Positions 3,737 to 44,820 of a DNA stretch of 64,000 nucleotides are shown here, piece after piece (the first letter of the stretch is position 1; every line of letters begins with the position of its first letter). Below the pieces are notes generated by a model that saw nothing but the letters and a program-made list of their open reading frames with translations, made no database searches and was not told the DNA's origin. This stretch comes from Desulfobacterales bacterium. Its GTDB lineage: Bacteria; Desulfobacterota; Desulfobacteria; Desulfobacterales; JAAELO01. The translations under genes and the position numbers were made by a program. The stretch spans positions 1-64,000 of the forward strand of contig JAAELO010000457.1 of NCBI GenBank assembly GCA_024226555.1, written 5' to 3'.

Positions 3737-4729
3737 ATGACTTTTTATTCATCTTTAGAAGATAAAGCCGGTCAAAGGATAATGGTTGGATTTGATGGCG
3801 TATCATTAAATAATGACCTGAAGTTCTTAATTAAAAATATCAGAGTTAATGGGATCATTCTATTTAAAAGAAATATAGAGAGTCCTGAACAAGTTAAAGA
3901 TTTAATAAGTGCTGCACAGGAATATGCAAAATCAAGTGGCTTACCCAAACTTTTTGTTTCAATAGACCAGGAAGGTGGAACAGTATCAAGATTGAAAGAA
4001 CCTTTTACCCAGTTTCCAGAAGGTGCTGCTGGAATCAAAACAAATGAATATGCTAAATATTTTGCGCAAGTTACAGCCAGTGAGTTAAAATCTATAGGTG
4101 TTAACATGAATATGGCACCCGTTCTTGATATCGATCCTGCAGGTTTCAATGGAATTATGAAAAAAAGAGCACTGGGAAATACACCGCAGCAAGTATCAGT
4201 GCTTGGACTTTCCATTATAAATAATCTTGAAAAAAACCGTGTTATGGCTGTTGGAAAGCATTTTCCAGGAATTGGACGAACTGTTTTAGACTCACATTTT
4301 GAACTGCCAAAACTTGATTTAACCATTGAAGAATTAAACGATTTTGAGTTGAAACCTTTTGAAGCTGCAATAAGAAATGGGGTATCAGGTTTAATGATAT
4401 CACACATTTTATATACAAAATTAGATGAGAAATGGCCTGCAAGCCTTTCTCCAAAAATTGCTAAAGATCTGTTAAGGGATAAGTTAGGGTATGATGGTTT
4501 ATTAATAACTGATGATCTTGATATGAAGGCTGTTAAGCATGACATCAGAACATCTGTTAAACAGGTTCTTAAATCTGATATTGATATACCACTGATTTGT
4601 AAAAGTGGGAAAAGGGTTGAAGAAGCATTCGATGAGATCATGAGAAATTTAAAAGATAGTAATGAGCTTGAAATATCCGGAAACAAATCCCTTGAAAGAA
4701 TTCTGAAACTGAAGAAAACATTTCTGTAA
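3737..4729 (+). CDS. nagZ: Beta-N-acetylhexosaminidase (GH3, NagZ-like)
   Basis: A glycoside hydrolase family 3 enzyme of 330 residues without a signal peptide, consistent with cytoplasmic NagZ, which removes N-acetylglucosamine from anhydro-muropeptides during wall recycling. The signature KHFPGIGRTVLDSH is present, with the Asp-His dyad of NagZ-type enzymes at D185/H187, and the nucleophile region is LLITDDLDMKAV around residue 259. One position of the signature (KHFPGHG in most members) is Ile here. Its position after mltG supports a role in peptidoglycan metabolism. A secreted glucosaminidase is less likely because no export signal is visible. Confidence 0.88.
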   Translation: MTFYSSLEDKAGQRIMVGFDGVSLNNDLKFLIKNIRVNGIILFKRNIESPEQVKDLISAAQEYAKSSGLPKLFVSIDQEGGTVSRLKEPFTQFPEGAAGIKTNEYAKYFAQVTASELKSIGVNMNMAPVLDIDPAGFNGIMKKRALGNTPQQVSVLGLSIINNLEKNRVMAVGKHFPGIGRTVLDSHFELPKLDLTIEELNDFELKPFEAAIRNGVSGLMISHILYTKLDEKWPASLSPKIAKDLLRDKLGYDGLLITDDLDMKAVKHDIRTSVKQVLKSDIDIPLICKSGKRVEEAFDEIMRNLKDSNELEISGNKSLERILKLKKTFL

Positions 4730-4848
4730 GTGGGTAGATTTATTCTAATATATGTATTATATTGAAAAGATCTGAATTGCATGTGCATGGCCTCTTTTTT
4801 TGTGCATAGTTCAGGTGTTAAATGAAACCTGTAAATAAAGGAACTATA

Positions 4849-5277
4849 ATGGCTAATGCAAAGAGCGGTGACACAGTAAGTATTCACTATACCGGAAAAC
4901 TTGAAGATGGAACTGTTTTCGACAGTTCAGAAGATAAAGAACCTTTGGTTTTTGAAATTGGAAGCGGAGCTGTTATCAAAGGCTTTGATGATGGAGTAAC
5001 AGGAATGGATCTTGGTGAGAAAAAAAGTCTTGTTATACCTCCTGAAGAAGCTTATGGGCTTGTAAACCCTGATTTATTAAGTGAAATTGCTCGTGATCAG
5101 TTTCCAGATGAAATCACACTTGAAAAAGATCTCGTGCTGCAAAGTAAAACCCCTGATGGGCATGTCGTAACTGTAGTGGTTACAGAATTAACTGATACGA
5201 CTGCAACAATTGATGCAAATCCACCTCTTGCAGGAAAAACATTGTATTTTGATGTTGAGTTAATGAAGATAGCTTAA
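4849..5277 (+). CDS. FKBP-type peptidyl-prolyl isomerase, SlyD-like
   Basis: A 142-residue FKBP with an insert-in-flap domain, as in SlyD. Visible motifs are VSIHYTGKLEDGTVFDSS and GMDLGEKKSLVIPPEEAYG, then the inserted segment (about 72-118) and the closing strand LYFDVELMKI. The histidine-rich metal-binding tail of SlyD is absent. I chose the ATG at 4849 because AAAGGA lies just upstream; an in-frame ATG at 4822 has no comparable site. The stop TAA is part of the 4-bp target duplication of the MITE that follows, and the gene's rho-independent terminator now lies beyond that element. Confidence 0.9.
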   Translation: MANAKSGDTVSIHYTGKLEDGTVFDSSEDKEPLVFEIGSGAVIKGFDDGVTGMDLGEKKSLVIPPEEAYGLVNPDLLSEIARDQFPDEITLEKDLVLQSKTPDGHVVTVVVTELTDTTATIDANPPLAGKTLYFDVELMKIA

Positions 5278-5405
5278 GGGAATCTCTAATAACTGATCTT
5301 TTTGCGAAACACAGATATAACAAAAATAAAACTGTAGTAAAATCAACCCGTTATTTTTTGTTATGCCTTGTTTTTCATCAAAAATTCTAATTATTAGAGG
5401 TTCCC
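5278..5405 (-). mobile_element. MITE copy, 128 bp, TTAA target duplication
   Basis: A well-preserved copy that serves as the type example. It starts GGGAATCTCTAATAACTG and ends TTATTAGAGGTTCCC, giving 15-bp terminal inverted repeats with one difference. A second, inner pair of inverted repeats brings the arms together again, so the whole unit can fold into a long interrupted hairpin. Perfect 4-bp direct repeats TTAA flank it (5274-5277 and 5406-5409). It has no open reading frame. The insertion lies exactly on the stop codon of the FKBP gene. Confidence 0.92.
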
Positions 5406-5458
5406 TTAAAACATTACTAAACACATAAGTACTTAAAATACGTTGCATTCCATATAAG

Positions 5459-7513: not shown

Positions 7514-8935
7514 ATGGATAAATTTACTAAATGGATGATACTTGCTACGATTTCAACCGGAGCTTTTATGGCCTCTCTTGATGGAAGCATTGTTAACATA
7601 ACGCTACCAACTCTTGTAAAAACTTTTGATACCAATTTTACTGATACAAAATGGATAGTTTTGGTATACTACCTTATTGTTACATCTTTTATACTTCCTT
7701 TTGGAAGGCTTGGAGATGTAATTGGAAGAAAGAAAATATATCTGACAGGTTTTGTGATTTTTACTATAGGATCATTACTTTGCGGACTTTCAAATTCACT
7801 GCTATCTCTAACAATATCGAGAGCAATTCAGGGTCTTGGAGGAGCAATGCTAATGTCATTAGGATTTGCTATTATAACGAGTCTCTTTGGCCCAAAGGAA
7901 AGGGGAAAAGCGTTAGGTATTGTTGCTACTTCTGTATCAATAGCAATTATTACCGGGCCTGTGCTTGGAGGACTGATACTGGAATATTTTTCCTGGCGTT
8001 TCATTTTTTATATTAATATCCCGGTAGGTATATTTGGTGTTTATATGATAATTAAATATATTGAACCTGATAAGGTGAAAAATAGTAATATGTTTAATAT
8101 TAAATCCGCTGTCTCTCTTTTTTCTTTTATGATTTCACTTCTAATGGGAATTTCAAGTGCTGGTAAAACTGGTTTAAGTATTGCTACTATTATTTTATTT
8201 TCTGTATTTATAGCTTCTCTTATATTATTAATAATTTTTGAATTAAAAGCAAAGAACCCCATTATGGATTTTGGAATGTTTAAAAATCATACATTCACAA
8301 TAGGTCTTGTTTCAGGAATCTCAGTTTTTATATCTCTTTCAGGAGTTCTTGTTTTACTACCTTTTTATCTTGAAAATATTCTTGGATTTAAATCAGGAAA
8401 AGCTGGTATGTTAATTTCGATAATTCCACTTTTTATGGGCATTTCATCACCAATAGCAGGCGTTATGGCTGATAAACTGGGATCGAATAAAATAACAATC
8501 GCTGGTATTATTATGTTACTCGCCGGGTTTATTGCAGTTTCTGGTATTAGTACAAATACGACTGTTACTGAGTTTTTAACAAGACTTGTTTTAATTGGTA
8601 CAGGTATGGGCTTTTTTATGACCCCAAACAACAATGCAATAATGGGATCTGTTCCAAAAAACAGATTGGGAGTATCATCTGGAATGCTTGCATTGTCACG
8701 TACCCTTGGACAAGCGCTGGGTGTTGCAATTCTTGGAGCATTATGGACAAGAAAAACCGATATCTTTTTATCAACTGTTACTGCTGATAAACTTACTGCT
8801 AAAATGCTGGCACTTCAAAGTACATTTTCGATCGTAATTATTATTATTACTTTAATTCTAATAATAAATATCTATGCCTTTATTAGAAACAGAAAACTGG
8901 TTATAACTGAAGAATATAATTTGGGTTCTGAATAA
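7514..8935 (+). CDS. MFS drug exporter, DHA2 (EmrB/QacA) family
   Basis: A 14-helix major facilitator of about 473 residues. Family motifs are LDGSIVNITLPTL in helix 1 (motif D1), GRLGDVIGRKKIY in the first cytoplasmic loop (motif A) and GPVLGGLILEYFSWRFIFYINIPVG (motif C region), which together define proton-driven DHA2 efflux pumps. I place the start at ATG 7514, after AAAGGAGAATAC; the frame is open further upstream to 7433 but that extension is not hydrophobic and has no ribosome site. It pairs with the upstream marR gene as a regulated efflux cassette. No membrane-fusion partner (EmrA) is nearby. Confidence 0.9.
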   Translation: MDKFTKWMILATISTGAFMASLDGSIVNITLPTLVKTFDTNFTDTKWIVLVYYLIVTSFILPFGRLGDVIGRKKIYLTGFVIFTIGSLLCGLSNSLLSLTISRAIQGLGGAMLMSLGFAIITSLFGPKERGKALGIVATSVSIAIITGPVLGGLILEYFSWRFIFYINIPVGIFGVYMIIKYIEPDKVKNSNMFNIKSAVSLFSFMISLLMGISSAGKTGLSIATIILFSVFIASLILLIIFELKAKNPIMDFGMFKNHTFTIGLVSGISVFISLSGVLVLLPFYLENILGFKSGKAGMLISIIPLFMGISSPIAGVMADKLGSNKITIAGIIMLLAGFIAVSGISTNTTVTEFLTRLVLIGTGMGFFMTPNNNAIMGSVPKNRLGVSSGMLALSRTLGQALGVAILGALWTRKTDIFLSTVTADKLTAKMLALQSTFSIVIIIITLILIINIYAFIRNRKLVITEEYNLGSE

Positions 8936-9495: not shown

Positions 9496-9606
9496 TGTAA
9501 TAAAAGTTTGAATAATTGATGATTATCCTAAAATTTGTATTTTTTTCATTAATCTGTTTGAACAGATGGTCCAAGGTCTGGTAAAATTTTATTTTAACTA
9601 CCCTAA

Positions 9607-9734
9607 GGGAACCTCTAAATAATTAGATTTTTGATGAAAAACAAGGCATAACAAAAAATAACGGGTTGATTTTACAACAGTTTTATTTTTGTTATATCTG
9701 TGTTTCGCAAAAAGATCAGTTATTAGAGGTTCTC
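9607..9734 (+). mobile_element. MITE copy, 128 bp
   Basis: Well preserved, and almost the reverse complement of the copy at 5278 (both contain the ATAACAAAAA arms). It begins GGGAACCTCTAAATAATTAG and ends TTATTAGAGGTTCTC. The flanks are CTAA and TTAA, a target duplication with one mismatch. It ends on the stop codon of the hybrid histidine kinase gene that is read toward it. Confidence 0.9.
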
Positions 9735-12050
9735 TTAAAGAACTTTTTGTATGGATTCAATTATTGCACGCTTTGTAACTGGTTTTGAAAGGTAGGCGTT
9801 CATACCTGAACCTAAATATTTTTCTATATCACCTTCCATTGAGTCTGCTGTTATTGCAATAATTGGAATGTTTTTAGCACTTTTATCCTTTTTCTCGATT
9901 AACCTTATCTCTTCAGTTGCTTCAACACCATCAAGGATAGGCATCTGTCCATCCATAAAGATGAGATCAAAACTCTCTTCCTGAAAACTTTTTACTGCTT
10001 CCTGACCGTTGTTTACAACAGATACAGAGTGTCCCATTTTTTCAAGTAATTTTTTGGCTACTTTCTGGTCCATCTTATTGTCTTCAGCAATAAGAATAGT
10101 AAGTTTTGGAATATCTTTTAATTCAGTAATCTTTTCATCAATAGTAACTTCCGAAGTAGGGATCTGATCAGTTTTTTCAAATACTGCAGAGAAGTTAAAA
10201 AGTGTGTAAAGCCCCTCCCTACTTTCAACGTTAATAGATCCACTCATTAGTTCTGAAAGCTTTTGAGCAATGGCAAGCCCCAGACCTTTGCCACCATATC
10301 TTCTTGTATTTATGGCTTTAGTAAGTGGAAAATCCTTAAACATGGATGAATTTATCCCCTTTCTTATACTTATTCCAGCATCATATATACCAAAATCCAG
10401 CTTAATAAAATCAGCATTCTCTGATAAAATTGATACATTAGTAAACATATGGCATGTATTTGTGAACCTTACAGCATTTTCTGTTAAATTATAAAGAACT
10501 TGATAAACTCTCTTCTTATCTCCAATTAAAGAAACTGGTATCTCTTTCTGAAAAAGGTGCATAAGCTTAATTTTTTTCTCTGTGGAGTTTTGTTTAATCT
10601 CTATTTGAATATTATCAACCAACTCTTTCAAATTAAAAGGCTCTTTTTTTAACTCAATTTCTCCAGATTCTAATTTTGTAAAGTCAAGTATATCTCTCAT
10701 AGCTTCAATCATAATATCTGAGCTTAATTTAATAGATTCCACATAATCAACTTGTTCTTTAGTGAGCTCAGTCTCTTTTAACAGATCGCTCATTCCAACA
10801 ATACCATTCATTGGAGTTATTAACTCATGGCTTATGTTACCGATAAATTCGCTTTTAAGCTCATTTTTGGCTTCAGCTTCTTCTGTTCTTTTGTATGCTA
10901 ACTTTAAATTCTCATTCAATTTATAATTTTTCTCTTCTGAACTTTCTTTTTCCTCTCTCAATTGATCCATGGCCACTTTTCGCCTCTGTCCAAATGAAGC
11001 AATAAACCATGAAAAGAGAGCGATAAAGATTTCAACAATGAAAAAAAGTACTGCCAGCTTATCCTGCAACCTATTAATTTTTGTTTTTAAATCACCTGTT
11101 GAGAAGTAAGAAACAACTTTAAACTTTCTTACTTCCCTTGGATTTATTTTTATTTTACTATCTCGTCCAAGTAGAGAATAGTAAATGGTATCGAAAGTAA
11201 ATAACCCGTTAATGCTTGTAAATTGACCTTTATTTAGGTTTTGAACCCTTTTCCATTCTGTTGGATAGAAGAATTTAAAATCATAATTATTTCTGCTTTT
11301 TAGTATGTGACCATACTCGAATTTATTTGAAGGATTTGCAATAAAGAATCCATCTTTATTGATAATATTAGATTCAGCCTTATTTTCTTTTGCGATCTCT
11401 TTGAAAGACTTAAGAAGATTATCAGCTTTAAGATCCATAACTAAAATACCGTTAAATTTTTCAGTAGTCATCAGGGGTGTTGATATTTTAATTATAGGTT
11501 GTAAATTATCAGGATTTTTTGATTTTAAGTAAAAGCCTGAAATATAAACCTCTCCTTTTTCAAGTTTAATTGACTCCATATAGTATTTTTTATTCGCGAC
11601 TACGTTTAGATTTTTGTATGGCAATGAAAATGGTCTTCCATTATTTTGTAAAACAACAAGTTTTTCTTTACCGGTATTATCAATAATTTGAATTTTATCA
11701 TATATTTTCATAACCCTGGTGAATGATTTGAATTCATTTATCAGTAACTCCCTGCTTTTTACTCTTCTTTTAAGACTCTTTTTACTAAGATAAATATCAA
11801 GTTCTCCATGTGTACTTTTCACAAGAATATCTGAAACAACTTTTTTAATTGTTCCATAAATGAGCTTTTTTTGACTTTTAACTTTTTGAATTTCCTGATT
11901 CTCTATCACTTTTTTTTCAGAAATATTATAATTTGTATTAAAAGCTATAAATATTGTGAAGCACAAAATGGAAAAAGGTATGAAAACAATTGCAAACTTA
12001 ACAAGAAAAGAAAACGAGATGATGTCTGATTTTATTTTAGGTAACTCCAT
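9735..12050 (-). CDS. Hybrid sensor histidine kinase
   Basis: A membrane-bound hybrid kinase (771 residues from the chosen start; the positions here count from the first in-frame ATG at 12062). Order: transmembrane helix 22-41, periplasmic Cache-like sensor about 45-330, second helix 336-357, coiled coil 360-400, HisKA with SHELITPMN (H412), HATPase, then a receiver with D704 in IFMDGQMP. The ATP-binding domain keeps the N box (NLTENAVRF) and [10 protein letters not shown], but its G1 box reads DAGISI instead of DTGIGI. I prefer ATG 12050, which has GGGAG upstream. The stop codon lies in the target site of a MITE. It has no partner gene nearby, so its output is unknown. Confidence 0.88.
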
Positions 12051-31717: not shown

Positions 31718-32414
31718 CTTTTTCTCCCTTTGATTATAAAAAAATTGTAAATAAAATTAAATTTCAGCCAAACCTATAGAGGTTTAGCTAAATATATATA
31801 AATATATGACATTTTGTATTGAATTCTTTTTGCTATCATCATATTTATTACATCAACTATGAAATGGATCACAGCAAATTTCTTTTAAAATTTCTGTTCA
31901 GAACAAATTCCCTTAATTCCCGCTTTTATACAAGTTTTTTAAAAAAGTATGTCATCTAAAAGTAAATTTAATGTAAAATAGTTGTAAAAAGAAAGCCGAT
32001 TTCTTTACAAAATACATTTAATGTTAAGATAAATATGAAGTTATTTTGTTTTTCAGTGAATTGTTTTAATGGAATCTCTAATAACTGCTCTTTTGGCGAA
32101 ATCCTTTGTTATTTCCAAAAAAAACTGTAATAAAATCGGCTCGTTATTTTTGGAAATGCCTTGTATTTCATCCAAAATTCTAGTTATTAGAGGTTCCCTT
32201 AATAGATCTGATTTGTCTTTACCTCAAAGGGCAAAGGCAGATTTGCTCCTATGACATTTCTCAGATGTGAACGATTTCATAAGCTTACACTTAAAAGGAT
32301 GATAAATGCATTTGCGGGATTTAAGGATGATGAAAGAATTCTATTATCCCACCCGTTTTTTAATAGAAAGTAAATACCGACCAATTAATCAGGTTCGGTA
32401 ATAAAAGGAATACC
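31718..32414. other. 697-bp gap with MITE and unidentified fragment
   Basis: AT-rich spacer, then the MITE at 32070-32198. Immediately right of the element, two overlapping frames look protein-like: RSDLSLPQRAKADLLL, then about 32251-32372 RFHKLTLKRMINAFAGF and DDERILLSHPFFNRK ending in a stop. This may be a decayed gene end; I do not recognise the family. Confidence 0.35.
32070..32198 (-). mobile_element. MITE copy, 129 bp, TTAA target duplication
   Basis: The first base is T instead of G (TGGAATCTCTAATAACTGC) and the right end is TTATTAGAGGTTCCC. The flanks are TTAA at 32066-32069 and 32199-32202, a perfect duplication. Nearly the reverse complement of the copy at 29852. Confidence 0.9.
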
Positions 32415-34810: not shown

Positions 34811-35416
34811 ATGAAACAAAATTTTAAATTTTTTATACTAATTTTATTAGCCGTAGCTTTTTGTAATGCATGTGGAAACAAACAGGAAAAGCATCCTAAA
34901 AAAACTGATATATGGCAATTTGTCGACCAGATCTTTCCAAAGGAAGATTTGGAAGCATTGCACTCCCATCGTTACAAACTGATCAAAAAAGAAAGTCTTG
35001 TTATACCGAACATTCCTAATAACCCTTATCAAGATCTTTACAAGTGGGATATTGCTGATGACAGGATAAAGTCTCTTCAAAAATTGGGTGTCAAAAGTTA
35101 CGCAGCATTGTGGTTCAGAAAACCTAACAGGGATAATTCGATCTATTTTGAAATAGCTGTTTTAGATAAGGTTCCGGATATCAACATAAAAAAGGCAATT
35201 ATGGGTGGTTATGTTCATGCATACCAGCACATCGAACCTCATTTCTATAAAAAAATATCAGAAAATCTGTATTATTCCGATCATTACTCACATTATTTTT
35301 ATGCGGACGGCAAGTATATGTTTAACCTTCAAAGTGAAGGGGATCAAGTTCACGAATTACTTAAAATTGTCCTAAACTACATAAAGGGAACCTCTAATAA
35401 TTATAATTTTTATTGA
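34811..35416 (+). CDS. Putative lipoprotein with MITE-encoded C-terminus
   Basis: A 201-residue exported protein. The N-terminus MKQNFKFFILILLAVAFCNAC is a signal sequence ending in cysteine residues that could be a lipobox, though the match to the consensus is loose. I use ATG 34811, with GGAG 8 bp upstream, just after the stem-loop at 34756. No family is recognised. The last residues (GTSNNYNFY) are read from the MITE at 35386. Removing the element and one target copy restores NYIKTY then a stop, so the insertion swapped two residues for nine. Confidence 0.7.
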   Translation: MKQNFKFFILILLAVAFCNACGNKQEKHPKKTDIWQFVDQIFPKEDLEALHSHRYKLIKKESLVIPNIPNNPYQDLYKWDIADDRIKSLQKLGVKSYAALWFRKPNRDNSIYFEIAVLDKVPDINIKKAIMGGYVHAYQHIEPHFYKKISENLYYSDHYSHYFYADGKYMFNLQSEGDQVHELLKIVLNYIKGTSNNYNFY

Positions 35417-35515
35417 AATACAAGGCGGGAGAAAAAACAATGAGGCGATTTTACAAAAGTTTTTTTTTAGAAACAACGCAGCAGTTCGATCAAAAGGCAG
35501 TTATTAGAGATTCCC
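35386..35515 (+). mobile_element. MITE copy, 130 bp, TAAA target duplication
   Basis: It begins GGGAACCTCTAATAATTAT and ends CAGTTATTAGAGATTCCC, with perfect flanking TAAA (35382-35385 and 35516-35519). It supplies the C-terminal codons and stop of the preceding lipoprotein gene. Confidence 0.93.
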
Positions 35516-35560
35516 TAAAAACATATTAAATTAGTATCTTTTCCATCAACCGGAGCTTAA

Positions 35561-38474: not shown

Positions 38475-38508
38475 GGCTCAACAATTCTGAATTTGTTTGA
38501 GCCTTTTT
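38475..38508 (+). terminator. Rho-independent terminator, plus strand
   Basis: GGCTCAA and TTGAGCC form a stem followed by TTTTT. It reads on the plus strand and overlaps the bioD stop codon, so it blocks readthrough from the left into the biotin genes. Confidence 0.65.
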
Positions 38509-39172
38509 ATAATATCGTAAAATCGTTTTCAATTTTATTGAAATTATCAATTTTCCCTATTTTGTTTGCTTTAATACCTGAAAAAACCTCAATAACCTCA
38601 ATATTTTCATCTATCATGCTCAGATCAGTGCTACCGTCCTTATCAACAAGGACGATTCGGGCTGGTTTCATTCCTCTTGAAATGAGGGCTTCTATGGATA
38701 GTAGGGTATGGTTAATTGTACCAAGTCCTGCTCTTCCTGCAAGTACCACTTCACAATCAAGCTCATTTATAAAATCTGCAACCAGAATTTTATCTGTTAT
38801 TGGGACAAATATCCCCCCGGACATCTCTATAACAGAGTGTGTAAAGTCTTTAGTTAAATCGTTAATGGATTTAATACTGTTTTTAATATCTATTACTTCA
38901 TTGTCATCTCTTGCAGCAAAATAGGGTGCTTTTGGATTTTTATTACAATTTATTACAGACTTTGAGATATCCCAATCTTTGATATTAAGGTTTTCATATA
39001 TAAAAAGTGCATCTGAATCTGTATCATAAACATCTTTGCAGCCTGTCTGGAATGGTTTTACATATACAGGTTTATCTCCATTATTAATCAATTGTTTCAT
39101 AAGAATTAACGAAACAACTGTTTTTCCAATTTCAGTGTCAGTTCCTACTACTACATAATGCTTACATTGCAT
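38507..39172 (-). CDS. bioD: Dethiobiotin synthetase
   Basis: A 221-residue enzyme that carboxylates 7,8-diaminopelargonic acid with ATP to dethiobiotin. The P-loop GTDTEIGKTVVSL is at the N-terminus, and PFQTGCKD, EMSGGIFVPI and LAGRAGLGTINHTLLSIEAL are typical family blocks. It is the last gene of the minus-strand biotin operon and overlaps bioF by 22 bp, which implies translational coupling. Confidence 0.93.
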   Translation of the reverse strand: MQCKHYVVVGTDTEIGKTVVSLILMKQLINNGDKPVYVKPFQTGCKDVYDTDSDALFIYENLNIKDWDISKSVINCNKNPKAPYFAARDDNEVIDIKNSIKSINDLTKDFTHSVIEMSGGIFVPITDKILVADFINELDCEVVLAGRAGLGTINHTLLSIEALISRGMKPARIVLVDKDGSTDLSMIDENIEVIEVFSGIKANKIGKIDNFNKIENDFTIL

Positions 39173-40308
39173 TTATCAAAACTCCTTTTTAGTTCCGCAA
39201 TTAGTTTTTCAAGATCCTCTTCGTTGTGTAGAGCTGTCATCCCAATTCTTAGAATTGCTTTACCTTTATGAACTGTTGGATATCTTGCAGGGAAAATTAA
39301 TAATCCTGATTTTAGCATCATTGATGAAATTTGAGTCGCTCTTTCTTCATCACCAACAAAGATAGAGATAATGTGGGCATCACCTTCTACTTTAAAACCA
39401 GCTTTCGTAAGCTCGGCCTTAAGTAATGTACACATCCTTTTTAGATGATCTCTTCTTTCATCACTATTTTCTATAATTTCAAGGAATTCCAGAGCTGAAG
39501 CTGCATGGGCTTCAGGAAGTGTTGTTGAATAAATAAGAGGTGAGGAAAAATTTAGTAAATACTCTTTTATAAGCGAGGGGAGTAACACAAAAGCACCAAA
39601 CAGACCAAATGCTTTTCCAAAGGTTCCAACCGCAACATCTGAAACACCCTTGGCAACACCCTTTCCTTTGTCACCTAAAACCCCGAAAGCGTGTGATTCA
39701 TCAACAATTGACAGAAAATTGTACTTTTGTTTTAAAACATTTAGTATACCAACATCCAAAATATCACCATCCATGCTGAAAAGAGACTCAGTAACAACAG
39801 CTTTATTTTGAGCATCGTTTTTTGATAGTCTTTTTTCAAGATGTGAAAATGAGCTGTGATTGTAGCTTGTAAGCTTTGCTTTTGAACCTTCAAGGCCTTT
39901 TACAGCGCTTGCATGTATGTGTTTATCAAAAAAAACACTATCTGAACTGTCAAATAGAGATGATAGAAGTCCAAGATTTGCCTGATAACCACTTGGGTAA
40001 AAAATAGCTGATTCAAAACCAAAATATGATGCATATTCATCTTCAGCCTGGTTTATAATTGAGTAGTTCCCGGATACTAATCTTGATGATGATGATGATG
40101 TGCCGTACTTTTTGAAATTTCTGCCAACAATATCTTTTGAAATATCAAGTTCAGATATACCGAGATAATCATTTGATGCAAAACTTAATATCATCGCACC
40201 ATTAATTTGAGCAAATTTACCAAATCTATTTTCTATTATTACCGGATCTCTATATAAACCCTGCTCTTTTTTGATATTCAGCTTTCTTTTGAATTTTTCG
40301 TCAAACAT
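39151..40308 (-). CDS. bioF: 8-amino-7-oxononanoate synthase
   Basis: A 385-residue PLP enzyme that joins pimeloyl-thioester and L-alanine. Motifs: ASNDYLGIS near residue 45, FYPSGYQANLGLLSSL, VDESHAFGVLGDKGKG, and the PLP lysine in VGTFGKAFG. The gene overlaps both bioD (downstream) and the hotdog gene (upstream, by 31 bp). Its pimeloyl substrate is presumably supplied on the ACP encoded two genes upstream. Confidence 0.93.
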   Translation of the reverse strand: MFDEKFKRKLNIKKEQGLYRDPVIIENRFGKFAQINGAMILSFASNDYLGISELDISKDIVGRNFKKYGTSSSSSRLVSGNYSIINQAEDEYASYFGFESAIFYPSGYQANLGLLSSLFDSSDSVFFDKHIHASAVKGLEGSKAKLTSYNHSSFSHLEKRLSKNDAQNKAVVTESLFSMDGDILDVGILNVLKQKYNFLSIVDESHAFGVLGDKGKGVAKGVSDVAVGTFGKAFGLFGAFVLLPSLIKEYLLNFSSPLIYSTTLPEAHAASALEFLEIIENSDERRDHLKRMCTLLKAELTKAGFKVEGDAHIISIFVGDEERATQISSMMLKSGLLIFPARYPTVHKGKAILRIGMTALHNEEDLEKLIAELKRSFDKCNVSIM

Positions 40309-40718
40309 TGAAACACCTTCTTATAATGGGAGTTACTATTCTCTTTTTTCTCTATGCTATCAAAATCTGTAACACCGAAAACCATCTCACCAAAAAAGGC
40401 TCTATTCTTGTCTTCAGCTTTTAATTTGTATGAATATGCACCACGACTGTTAGCAATCAGATTACCAGTGATATTAAATGTACCATTTGGAAAATCCGGT
40501 AAACTAAAACTATTAATTTTTAGAAGAAAAACAAACCTCTCAAAATCGGTCAGATATCTAACGTGCAGGGCTCCTAACTGTGCTAAAGACTCCATTGCAG
40601 TAAAACTATTCTCAGATTTAATTGTGTAAGCCCCTTTAATGTGTTTATCTGAAATCTCAGAGATTCTATCGATACAAAGAAAACTCTTTAAGCCTGTATT
40701 TATTTCTATTCGTTCCAT
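40278..40718 (-). CDS. FabZ-like hotdog protein lacking the HFPG loop
   Basis: A 146-residue hotdog-fold protein resembling 3-hydroxyacyl-ACP dehydratases. FLCIDRISEISDKHIKGAY aligns with the first FabZ strands, and FTAMESLAQLGALH with the central helix that carries the catalytic Glu (the E in MESLAQ). The segment between them, which in FabZ holds the catalytic His in HFPGXPVXPG, is missing. The complementary protein at 43149 has that segment but Lys instead of Glu. Together they could form a mixed active site. It overlaps the KAS gene by 13 bp. Confidence 0.75.
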   Translation of the reverse strand: MERIEINTGLKSFLCIDRISEISDKHIKGAYTIKSENSFTAMESLAQLGALHVRYLTDFERFVFLLKINSFSLPDFPNGTFNITGNLIANSRGAYSYKLKAEDKNRAFFGEMVFGVTDFDSIEKKENSNSHYKKVFQCLTKNSKES

Positions 40719-41893
40719 TTTTTTATAATGAGGGCGCAGTTTTGCCCACCAAATCCAAAATTTTGAAGTGCCACAGTTTCAATACTTTCATCTGTATTTT
40801 TAAGGTTAAAGTTGATATCTGAAATCGGATTTTTAAGTCCTCTTATTTTTGGAATAAATGAGCTTCTCATAAAATCAATACTGAGGGAAGTTTCTAAGGC
40901 ACCACAGGCAGTTGAGAGATGTCCGCTCCAGGATTTTATGGAAATTGCTTTTGACTGTTCCCCATATACCCTTTTTATTAGATCAGCCTCAACATCATCA
41001 TTAAGGTTTGTTCCTGTTCCATGTGATGAAATAAGGTCAACGCTTGAAGGTGTAATATTTGCTTCAGACAGCGCATTTCTCATGGATCTTTCAGCATAAA
41101 TACCAGTGGGATCAGGAGCAGTTAAAGAAGTATTATCTAAGGAGAGAGAAAAACCTTTTACTTCTGCAAAAATATTTGCAGATCGTTTTTGTGCATGTGA
41201 AAGCTCTTCAAGCATAAGAAAAGCACCACCCTCACCAGAAATAAATCCATCCCTTTCATGATCAAATGGCCTGTGGATATTTGATTTACTTAAGGCTCCT
41301 GCCATTTCATAGGCAAGAAGACCTCCATAACTAACCCGTGAATCACCTCCACCTGTCAGGGCTACATCAAGGTATCCATCTTTAATTTTACGAAATGCTT
41401 CCCCTATTGCATTTAAAGAAGATGCGCAAGCAGTGCTTACTGTTGAATTCTCACCATGAAAGCCGGTCCTCGAAGCTATGACAGATGTTGCAGTATTTGG
41501 CAGAAATCTCAAAAGCCAGAGTGCATTCAGATCTTTTTTAGATATAGTTCCATTAGATACTGAATTTATCTCTCCTCCAATATCAAGGTTCGGTCCAAAG
41601 CTGGTTATTAAACCTGCCTTTTCTATGTTCTTATCAATCCCGGAATTTACAAAAGCCTTAAGGGCTGCTGCAACTCCAAACTGAGCCCCCCGGTTAAGGT
41701 ATTTCACTTTTTTATCCCGACCTGTAAAATCCTTAACATTAAAAGCATCTACAACTCTAACTTTAACATCTCTTTCTAAGGATATAGAACTCTCATTAAT
41801 ATTATCATTTTTGATATTATCAATTACATCAGATATATTATTTCCTATTGCTGAAAAATATCCGGTGCCTGTTATTACTACTCGTCGTTTCAT
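40706..41893 (-). CDS. Beta-ketoacyl-ACP synthase of the biotin operon
   Basis: A 395-residue FabF-like condensing enzyme. The catalytic triad is complete: Cys156 in VSTACASSL, His291 in SSHGTGT and His325 in SWSGHLSTACGA, with Lys320 just before. It should extend an acyl chain with malonyl units on the ACP encoded next to it. Its place among bio genes suggests that it makes the pimeloyl chain rather than ordinary fatty acids. It lies 5 bp from the ACP gene. Confidence 0.88.
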   Translation of the reverse strand: MKRRVVITGTGYFSAIGNNISDVIDNIKNDNINESSISLERDVKVRVVDAFNVKDFTGRDKKVKYLNRGAQFGVAAALKAFVNSGIDKNIEKAGLITSFGPNLDIGGEINSVSNGTISKKDLNALWLLRFLPNTATSVIASRTGFHGENSTVSTACASSLNAIGEAFRKIKDGYLDVALTGGGDSRVSYGGLLAYEMAGALSKSNIHRPFDHERDGFISGEGGAFLMLEELSHAQKRSANIFAEVKGFSLSLDNTSLTAPDPTGIYAERSMRNALSEANITPSSVDLISSHGTGTNLNDDVEADLIKRVYGEQSKAISIKSWSGHLSTACGALETSLSIDFMRSSFIPKIRGLKNPISDINFNLKNTDESIETVALQNFGFGGQNCALIIKKWNE

Positions 41894-41898
41894 TTTTA

Positions 41899-42264
41899 TT
41901 ATTTCTTATAGAAGTTTATATAACTTACCAGGTCTTTAATTTTAATTATATTCCCGCTCTTTATATCTGAAAGCATCTCATCAACTCTATAGGAACTTAA
42001 AAATTCATATTTTTTGCATAGTAATGAATTTATATTTAAACCATTTTCTTCAGCTTCAGCCATATATTCCTGAAAGTTTCTTAAAAAGATGAAATCATCC
42101 TGAACCTCAAAACCGAAAACTTCTGAAAATGAAAGCGCCATCTCTAAAAAATCAACAGATTCCGCATCAAGCTCTCTTATTAAATATGATTCTTCTGCAA
42201 TTTCACCTTTTTCAATATCAAGTACTTCTGATATAATTTCTTTTATCTCTTCCAATACGTTCAA
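41899..42264 (-). CDS. Acyl carrier protein with C-terminal extension
   Basis: A 121-residue acidic helical protein. The first 80 residues match ACP, with the phosphopantetheine serine at S36 in ELDAESVDFLEM (AES in place of the usual DSL). About 40 extra residues follow. It is clearly a specialised carrier rather than the housekeeping AcpP. It lies between the KAS gene and a MITE that separates it from the SDR gene. Confidence 0.83.
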   Translation of the reverse strand: MNVLEEIKEIISEVLDIEKGEIAEESYLIRELDAESVDFLEMALSFSEVFGFEVQDDFIFLRNFQEYMAEAEENGLNINSLLCKKYEFLSSYRVDEMLSDIKSGNIIKIKDLVSYINFYKK

Positions 42265-42295
42265 TTAAAACACCTCAAAATTCCAAATCTTTAAA

Positions 42296-42422
42296 GGGAA
42301 TCTCTAAAAACTGCACTTTGACCGAACTACAGCGTTCGAAATAAAAAACTGTTGTAAAATCGCCTCGTTATTTATTTCTTACCCTTGTATTTCAATCAAA
42401 TTTCTATTTTCTAGAGGTTCCC
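42296..42422 (-). mobile_element. MITE copy, 127 bp, TAAA target duplication, inside bio operon
   Basis: It begins GGGAATCTCTAAAAACTGC and ends TTTCTAGAGGTTCCC, with perfect flanking TAAA (42292-42295 and 42423-42426). The last base of the element is part of the TAG stop codon of the SDR gene read toward it; removing the insertion leaves TAA at the same place. Confidence 0.92.
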
Positions 42423-43159
42423 TAAAATGATTTTCCAAAGGAAAATCCACCATCTATAGTTAAATCCGTTGCATTAAAACCAAGGCTCTCATCGGATAGA
42501 AAAAAAACGATGGTATTTACAAACTCTTCTGCCTCAAGGATTTTTCTGCTTGGTATCTGCTTAATTATCTTTTCTTTAAATTTTCCAATAAAACTTTCAG
42601 CCCGACCTGCATTGATGTATCCTGGTCTAAGCACAATTGATGTTACACCCTTTTTTCCAAGTTCATGGCCAATAGACTTATATAATGATTCACAGGCTAA
42701 TTTTGATGAAGCATAAAACCCCTGCCCATGATTTGGTCTATGGGCTGCAATTGAGGATATATATATTAATCTCCCAAATCTGTTTTTTACCATTAGCCTT
42801 GAGATCTCTTTCATTAGAACAATTCTGGATATAACATTTTCTTCATAATACTCTTTGGTTTTATCAAGATCAGCATTTGCAACTATTGTCTCCATATTTC
42901 CATGGACAAGATCAACCAGATAATCAATTTTAGAAAAACTTTTTAAACTATCTGAAATTACTTCAGGGTTTTTAAAATCAAGCATTAATGTCTCATAGAA
43001 CTTTTCATCTTCTAAAGATTCCTTAATCTTTGTAAGACCATTATCATTTCGATAAGTTAATATTGGAAATAACCCCTTTTCCATTGAAGCTTTAGCAAGT
43101 CCAAGGCCTATTTTTGAGCTACCACCAGTAATTAGAATTTTTTTTCCACTAAATTTCAT
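42422..43159 (-). CDS. FabG-like short-chain dehydrogenase of the biotin operon
   Basis: A 245-residue SDR. The nucleotide-binding motif is ITGGSSKIGLGLAKA (TGXXXXIG) and the catalytic site SSIAAHRPNHGQGFYASSK (Ser and YXXXK). The position between the hotdog and ACP genes marks it as the probable 3-ketoacyl-ACP reductase of the pimeloyl pathway. It overlaps the upstream hotdog gene by 11 bp. Its stop codon is formed by the insertion site of a MITE. Confidence 0.88.
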   Translation of the reverse strand: MKFSGKKILITGGSSKIGLGLAKASMEKGLFPILTYRNDNGLTKIKESLEDEKFYETLMLDFKNPEVISDSLKSFSKIDYLVDLVHGNMETIVANADLDKTKEYYEENVISRIVLMKEISRLMVKNRFGRLIYISSIAAHRPNHGQGFYASSKLACESLYKSIGHELGKKGVTSIVLRPGYINAGRAESFIGKFKEKIIKQIPSRKILEAEEFVNTIVFFLSDESLGFNATDLTIDGGFSFGKSF

Positions 43160-43439
43160 TTAAGGATTCTCCGGATTTTATGATGCCTTTTGCATAGGTT
43201 ATATTTCCGCTATATATCTTGCAGTAGTAAATGTTTTCCTTCTGGTCTATAATATATGAACAAGACCCAGGTGTCAGAAATTTTCTAAAGGTGAAATTTT
43301 CAACTCTAAGGTTTGACTCTCCCAATAAATCTATAAATGCCTTTATTATAACTGTTCCAGGTACAACAGGATTACCCGGGAAATGTTCCCTGTAAATTTC
43401 GTCTTTTGGATCGAAATAAAAATCTCCTGTTCTCTTCAT
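43149..43439 (-). CDS. FabZ-like hotdog protein with HFPG motif
   Basis: A 96-residue hotdog protein: DEIYREHFPGNPVVPGTVII carries the FabZ catalytic-His loop, and FRKFLTPG the later strand. In the following helix the usual catalytic Glu (VLMIEA) is Lys (VIIKAF). It is much shorter than FabZ (about 145 residues) because the N-terminal strand is missing. I start at ATG 43439, 8 bp after AAGGG; an upstream ATG at 43463 lacks a site. It is the first gene of the minus-strand biotin operon, next to the BirA operator. Confidence 0.8.
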   Translation of the reverse strand: MKRTGDFYFDPKDEIYREHFPGNPVVPGTVIIKAFIDLLGESNLRVENFTFRKFLTPGSCSYIIDQKENIYYCKIYSGNITYAKGIIKSGESLNEI

Positions 43440-43492
43440 AATTAGGCCCTTATTAAAATTCATTTGATTTTAATATCAAGATATGGCAATTA

Positions 43493-43525
43493 TTGTCAAC
43501 CCATTATGATATTTAAGGTTTACAT
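43493..43525. promoter_or_regulatory. BirA (biotin repressor) operator
   Basis: TTGTCAACC (43493-43501), a 15-bp spacer and GGTTTACAT (43517-43525) match the widespread bacterial BirA operator TTGTNAACC-N15-GGTTNACAA with single-base deviations. It lies between bioA and the divergent hotdog gene, so it can control both transcripts. Confidence 0.9.
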
Positions 43526-43539
43526 TAGATGAGGAAATA

Positions 43540-44820
43540 ATGAATAGGTACAGTAACAAAGATCTTTTAGCTTTCGATAAAGAGCATATCTGGCATCCGT
43601 ATACATCCATGACAAACCCTCTGCCTGTTTATGAAGTGGTCAAGGCTGATGGGTGTACCATAACATTAAAAGATGGTACAAAACTGATTGACGGCATGGC
43701 TTCATGGTGGTCAGCTATACACGGTTATAACAATCCGGTTTTAAATGATGCTGTTAAAAGCCAACTAAATGATTTCTCCCATGTGATGTTTGGAGGATTG
43801 ACCCATAAACCAGCTGTTGAACTTTCATCATTGCTTGTTAAGATCACACCAAAGCCCCTTGAAAAAGTTTTTTTATCTGATTCCGGTTCAGTTTCTGTGG
43901 AAGTTGCAATAAAAATGGCTCTTCAGTACCATCATGCAAAAGGAAAACCTGAAAAACATAAACTTCTTACAATAAGAAATGGATATCATGGTGATACATT
44001 TGCTGCAATGTCCGTATGTGACCCGGTTACAGGTATGCATGGTCTATTCGAAGGTGCTTTACAGAAGAATTATTTTGCTGATGCTCCGAAAATTAAATTC
44101 CATGAAAAGTGGGATGAATCGGATATTGAAAGTTTCAAATTTCTGATTGAAAGTCACAACAATGAACTTGCAGCTGTTATTCTTGAACCAATTGTTCAGG
44201 GAGCAGGAGGGATGCGCTTCTACTCTCCGGAATATCTGAAAACTGTCAGAAAGCTATGTGACAAACATGATGTACTGCTAATATGTGATGAGATTGCAAC
44301 CGGATTTGGAAGAGCTGGTGAGCTTTTTGCTTCAGAATTTGCGGGGATTTCACCAGATATAATGTGCCTTGGCAAGGCTCTTACAGGCGGTTATATGACA
44401 CTGGCTGCAACTATAACCACAAAAGATATTGCTGAGACTATATCAAAAAGTGGTGGAGTTTTTATGCATGGTCCAACTTTTATGGGCAACCCGTTAGCAT
44501 GCTCAACTGCCATTGCAAGTATCAACCTGCTTCTATCCTTTAACTGGAAAGAGAATATAAAAAGAATTAATGATCTTATTGTAAAGAAATTCAATGCACT
44601 GAAAGGTCATTCTAAAATTGCAGATATTAGATCACTTGGAGCTATCGGTGTAATAGAGATGAAAGAAAACGTAGACGTTGGTGAGATTCAGAAAAAATTT
44701 ATTAAAAATGGTGTTTGGGTAAGACCTTTTGGGAAACTTATCTATATTATGCCACCCTATGTGATAACAGATGAGGAACTTGATTTTCTCTTAGATGGAA
44801 TGATTGCAACCATCGATTAA
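43540..44820 (+). CDS. bioA: Adenosylmethionine-8-amino-7-oxononanoate aminotransferase
   Basis: A 426-residue class III PLP aminotransferase that makes 7,8-diaminopelargonate. The N-terminal HIWHPYTSM is a BioA signature, followed by [15 protein letters not shown]. Motifs for cofactor binding are [20 protein letters not shown] and the PLP lysine in [11 protein letters not shown]. It is transcribed away from the other bio genes and begins 14 bp after the BirA operator. AGGAAATA is the ribosome site. A truncated MITE starts 2 bp past its stop codon. Confidence 0.95.

Follow-up and report, generated by a model that had tools for sequence, protein, structure and literature searches.

The double-hotdog dehydratase domains of polyketide synthases (PKS) and animal fatty acid synthase (FAS) have one active site per two hotdogs, with the His in one hotdog and the acid in the other. 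In the FabZ homodimer, each chain carries both the His of the HFPG loop and a helix Glu, and there are two sites per dimer. In FabA, each site draws one active residue from either subunit, and the Glu-His dyad of FabZ is structurally equivalent (PMC2698920). Single-site heterodimers have been described for ApeI/ApeP of aryl polyene synthesis (PDB 6QSR; PMC8041823) and for the mycobacterial hotdog dehydratase HadAB, in which HadB holds the whole Asp36-His41 dyad, of the hydratase-2 type (PMC4491049).

Rodionov et al. predicted in 2004 that the extended biotin operons of Desulfovibrio specify a new way of making the pimeloyl precursor (PMC545781). A transposon study of D. vulgaris from 2023 then identified nine clustered genes that are specifically important without biotin (PMC10102598). 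Its transposon data show that both FabZ-like genes of this cluster, DVU2560 and DORF42491, are needed for biotin synthesis. The authors argue for synthesis on a dedicated acyl carrier protein (ACP) without methyl esters and state that the biochemistry of the pimeloyl-ACP pathway in sulfate-reducer-type bacteria is still to be defined. Neither "catalytic" nor "heterodim" occurs in the text of that paper, and the passages and terms searched for this type of cluster yielded no discussion of a divided active site. Searches of the open-licence literature for such a site in biotin synthesis yielded only these two papers.

The biotin operon around the two hotdog genes

The window, which is the whole 64,000-nucleotide stretch of Desulfobacterales DNA that was analyzed, contains two FabZ-like hotdog genes, here termed H-type and E-type (Table 1). 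The gene order is divergent bioA, followed on the opposite strand by the H-type hotdog, a short-chain dehydrogenase/reductase (SDR), an ACP, a beta-ketoacyl-ACP synthase (KAS), the E-type hotdog, bioF and bioD. Because bio genes and a BirA-type operator are present, this run is a biotin operon with the Desulfovibrio-type route to pimeloyl-ACP. The preliminary description had overlooked this identity, but it had rightly placed both hotdog genes in a common operon, as they lie in one same-strand gene run.

As in the D. vulgaris cluster (DVU2558-DVU2565, with DVU2560 and DORF42491), five fatty-acid-like genes (two FabZ-like, a 3-oxoacyl-ACP reductase, an ACP and a FabF-like KAS) accompany the bio genes, and there is a BirA site. 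The window differs from clusters of this type in having its bioB on another contig and in lacking the nitroreductase of many relatives. The 7.69-Mb genome has just two occurrences of the BirA-type pattern, one in this operon and one upstream of bioB on the other contig, and the reversed control pattern had no match there. Among proteins of other known pimeloyl routes, BioC gave no match above its cut-off and BioW gave none.

Table 1 Features of the biotin operon in the window.
Feature	Coordinates	Strand	Description
BioD dethiobiotin synthase	38507..39172	minus	over cut-off
BioF-like 8-amino-7-oxononanoate synthase	39151..40308	minus	321 bits to TIGR00858, cut-off 426; named by best match and context
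E-type hotdog ORF	40278..40718	minus	146 aa; reads ...YTIKSENSFTAMESLAQLGALHVRYL; Glu43 in MESLAQ, without HFPG loop
FabF-like beta-ketoacyl-ACP synthase (KAS)	40706..41893	minus	family matches
Dedicated acyl carrier protein	41899..42264	minus	121 aa; DAESVD phosphopantetheine site; long insert
SDR, FabG-like 3-oxoacyl-ACP reductase	42422..43159	minus	family matches
H-type hotdog ORF	43149..43463	minus	104 aa; reads ...REHFPGNPVVPGTVIIKAFIDL; His27 in HFPG loop, Lys41 at FabZ Glu position
BirA-type operator, TTGTCAACC-N15-GGTTTACA	43493..43524	none	between bioA and H-type gene; consensus from PMC545781
BioA, divergent	43540..44820	plus	over cut-off

Several smaller features of these operons were also recorded. 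The dedicated biotin ACPs are about 120 aa long and have an insert of about 40 residues before the last helix, a family-wide property (window, L026, L034, L124 and L152). A nitroreductase-like gene lies between the ACP and KAS genes in 25 of 37 operons (for example L026, 5363-5995). It was considered as the enoyl reductase here and rejected, since the window lacks the gene and no clear orthologue is present elsewhere in the genome. The window has about ten long copies of a near-palindromic, MITE-like repeat of about 130 bp with ends AGGGAAYCTCTA (among them 35385-35524, 5276-5410, 32064-32202 and 9606-9741). One further copy of this set, at 42280-42428, separates the SDR gene of the biotin operon from its ACP gene.

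Division and conservation of the catalytic residues

The preliminary description reported that the H-type protein has the HFPG His with Lys in place of the catalytic Glu, and that the E-type protein has this Glu and lacks the HFPG loop. Both observations were reproduced. The H-type open reading frame (ORF) encodes the loop HFPGNPVVPG, and Lys41 follows His27 by 14 residues, at the position where housekeeping FabZs, including the complete FabZ of the same genome (HFPGQPVMPGVLIIEALAQ), have Glu. Profile alignment of the E-type to FabZ places Glu43 on the FabZ Glu and leaves a 13-residue gap at the HFPG loop. The FabZ combination of His and Glu within one chain was found in neither window protein (His27/Lys41 in the H-type; Glu43 and no HFPG in the E-type). 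Judging from the starts of homologues, the ATG at 43439 is the likelier H-type start, which is also the boundary given in the preliminary description. The H-type passes PF07977 (26 bits, cut-off 23) and falls below the cut-off of the FabZ family TIGR01750 (20 bits, cut-off 155), and the E-type has no match in Pfam or NCBIfam, including these two families. Pseudogenes and chance resemblance were rejected in view of the intact ORFs and the conserved catalytic pattern.

Orthologues were sampled by genome searches of the order, class and phylum, together with named Desulfobacterales, Halodesulfovibrio and other contigs. The counts are of distinct sequences, which are kin by descent and so not independent events, and they leave out three weak matches to the E-type model (L223-L225) that are complete FabZ-like proteins outside a bio operon. 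His27 is invariant in all 38 H-type orthologues and Glu43 in all 56 E-type orthologues, where only two well-occupied columns, Glu43 and Arg54, are invariant. None of the bona fide E-type orthologues has the HFPG loop. In the H-types, position 41 is occupied by His (22 sequences), Glu (6), Gln (3), Ser (2), Ala (2), Trp (1), Tyr (1) or Lys (1), and its entropy of 2.03 bits is that of the median column. There is no acid at this position in 32/38 H-types, namely the window protein and 31 of the 37 other orthologues, which lack Glu. Wherever both genes were seen (37/37 operons), they share a strand and the H-type gene lies upstream of the E-type gene. The two are non-adjacent. No H-E fusion of the Rosetta-stone kind was found, and both half-models were matched together only by complete FabZ-like proteins.

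The residue conservation and the constant gene order support a composite site, for which the His and Glu are expected to come from different chains and the opposite position to be little constrained; the separation of the two genes and the missing fusion count against a complex. We propose that the two hotdogs are probably subunits of one dedicated 3-hydroxyacyl-ACP dehydratase that serves pimeloyl-ACP, and hence biotin, synthesis with a single His27/Glu43 dyad. The H-type and E-type would associate as the chains of FabZ do in its dimer, setting His27 against Glu43 to form the one working dyad. The mirror site would be dead because the E-type is without the HFPG loop and position 41 of the H-type is free to drift. 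Together with the ACP, KAS and SDR of the operon and an enoyl reductase from elsewhere, the pair would carry out the dehydrations in two rounds of malonyl extension to pimeloyl-ACP, with 3-hydroxyglutaryl- and 3-hydroxypimeloyl-ACP as its likely substrates on a methyl-ester-free route from malonyl-ACP. The sequence split, its conservation, the gene context and the folds are observed here, and the assembly, its activity and substrates and the source of enoyl reduction are inferred. A single split enzyme would account for the requirement for both FabZ-like genes in cells that have a normal FabZ as well.

The complete FabZ of the same genome could also be taken to mean that this housekeeping enzyme performs the dehydration and that the pair is non-catalytic, for example a scaffold for the dedicated ACP. 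We regard this as extremely unlikely, as exactly complementary catalytic residues are kept across all orthologues.

A complete His/Glu pair within one chain, which the preliminary description named as one observation that would speak against its heterodimer, occurs in no E-type but does occur in six of the 38 H-types, through Glu41 (L124, L218-L220, L151 and L152). These six suggest another arrangement, in which dehydration is carried out by the H-type, either as a homodimer or with another acid, and the E-type serves it as a structural or ACP-docking partner. This is very unlikely: most H-types have no acid at position 41, yet Glu43 is one of the two invariant E-type columns, and it is kept even where the H-type of the operon has Glu41. 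In the Glu41 lineages the H-type might be active as a homodimer. Since Glu43 is retained and the His loop is missing in the E-type partners of these lineages as well, the composite dehydratase stands as the proposed reading. The heterodimer with one working site that was put forward in the preliminary description is thus the best account of the invariant His27 and Glu43 on different chains, the drifting position 41 and the constant gene order, but its qualification as "obligate" is unproven given the Glu41 H-types.

Fold and relationship to other hotdog enzymes

Profile-profile comparison relates both chains to FabZ (E 3.8e-11 for the H-type and 2.3e-13 for the E-type), and no direct similarity between the two chains was detectable. 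Their AlphaFold2 models are confident hotdogs, with pLDDT values of 87.4 (H-type) and 85.6 (E-type). The best Foldseek match of the E-type model was FabZ, and a YcsD-FabZ model was also among its matches; none of the open-licence papers listed by a literature search for it names YcsD. The H-type model matched FabZ and then PKS/FAS double-hotdog dehydratases, with E-values weaker than those of the E-type.

Hotdog thioesterases, including the 4-hydroxybenzoyl-CoA thioesterase of Arthrobacter and PA1618, were also among the Foldseek matches of the E-type. We therefore retained the possibility of a thioesterase-like or editing role for an E-type homo-oligomer that uses Glu43 alone, with the H-type as a separate protein. 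Some hotdog thioesterases indeed lack the His and have only a helix Asp or Glu at the equivalent of the FabZ Glu (PMC2698920). However, the E-type profile matches FabZ, and its dehydratase-like PDB matches by sequence are all FabZ, at weak E-values of at least 0.18. There is no obvious need for a thioesterase in the pimeloyl-ACP pathway, and most H-types would be left without any catalytic acid, so that we consider this function quite unlikely.

Among described enzymes, ApeI/ApeP is closest in mechanism to the composite dehydratase proposed here. Both systems consist of two FabZ-like chains; ApeI/ApeP has one site, and the window pair has complementarity at the level of sequence only. The ApeI homologue 3esi carries an HF loop, and chain B of 6QSR (ApeP) has a helix E..AQ motif without the loop. 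The two systems differ in pathway. The window pair may work like ApeI/ApeP, but membership in that family is not supported by the profile evidence: the window H-type scores 13.5 bits against the ApeI-like PF22818 (cut-off 28.5; best E 0.0056 among members), and none of 33 E-type members matched the ApeP-like PF22817. By profile, the E-type is nearer to FabZ than to ApeP-like proteins (E 2.1e-5), the ApeP alignment being small at four sequences.

The FabZ homodimer shares with the window pair the hotdog fold and the HFPG His and helix Glu at aligned positions, and differs from it in having both residues on each chain. In the PKS/FAS dehydratases the hotdogs are fused in one chain, whereas the window pair consists of separate chains; weak PKS_DH_N matches were seen in 7/22 H-types. 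HadAB is unlike the window pair because HadB carries the whole dyad. Membership in the HadAB group is not supported either, as the two residues of the window pair belong to different chains and the acid occupies the position of the FabZ helix Glu. If the composite reading is right, the pair would add to the split FabZ-type dehydratases an example from the synthesis of a cofactor instead of a pigment.

A second divided dehydratase was observed in the same genome, in an aryl-polyene-like cluster (L136, C495:28000-42000; 4275-5414 and 8107-8550). Its ApeI-like domain is fused to an acyltransferase and has HFTEFPILPG, in which the His is followed 14 residues later by Glu. The separate ApeP-like protein has IEMMAQ.

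Arg54 and other conserved E-type residues

The invariant Arg54 of the E-type lies 11 residues (about three turns) after Glu43 in the same predicted helix (residues 38-56), and from this spacing it is predicted to be on the same helix face as Glu43. His52 is near-invariant. An Arg at the spacing of Arg54 is absent from the FabZ and ApeP sequences aligned here. These residues suggest a speculative and rather unlikely purpose for the split, namely a dicarboxylate-tolerant dehydratase: the E-type helix, freed from a second site, could have evolved Arg54, with His52, to hold the free omega-carboxylate. If true, this would explain how pimeloyl-ACP is made without the methyl-ester disguise of the omega-carboxylate used by E. 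coli.

Residue 62 of the E-type (in HAFLLK) is His in 50/56 E-types. It is Phe in the window protein, and this His is therefore not a universal catalytic residue.
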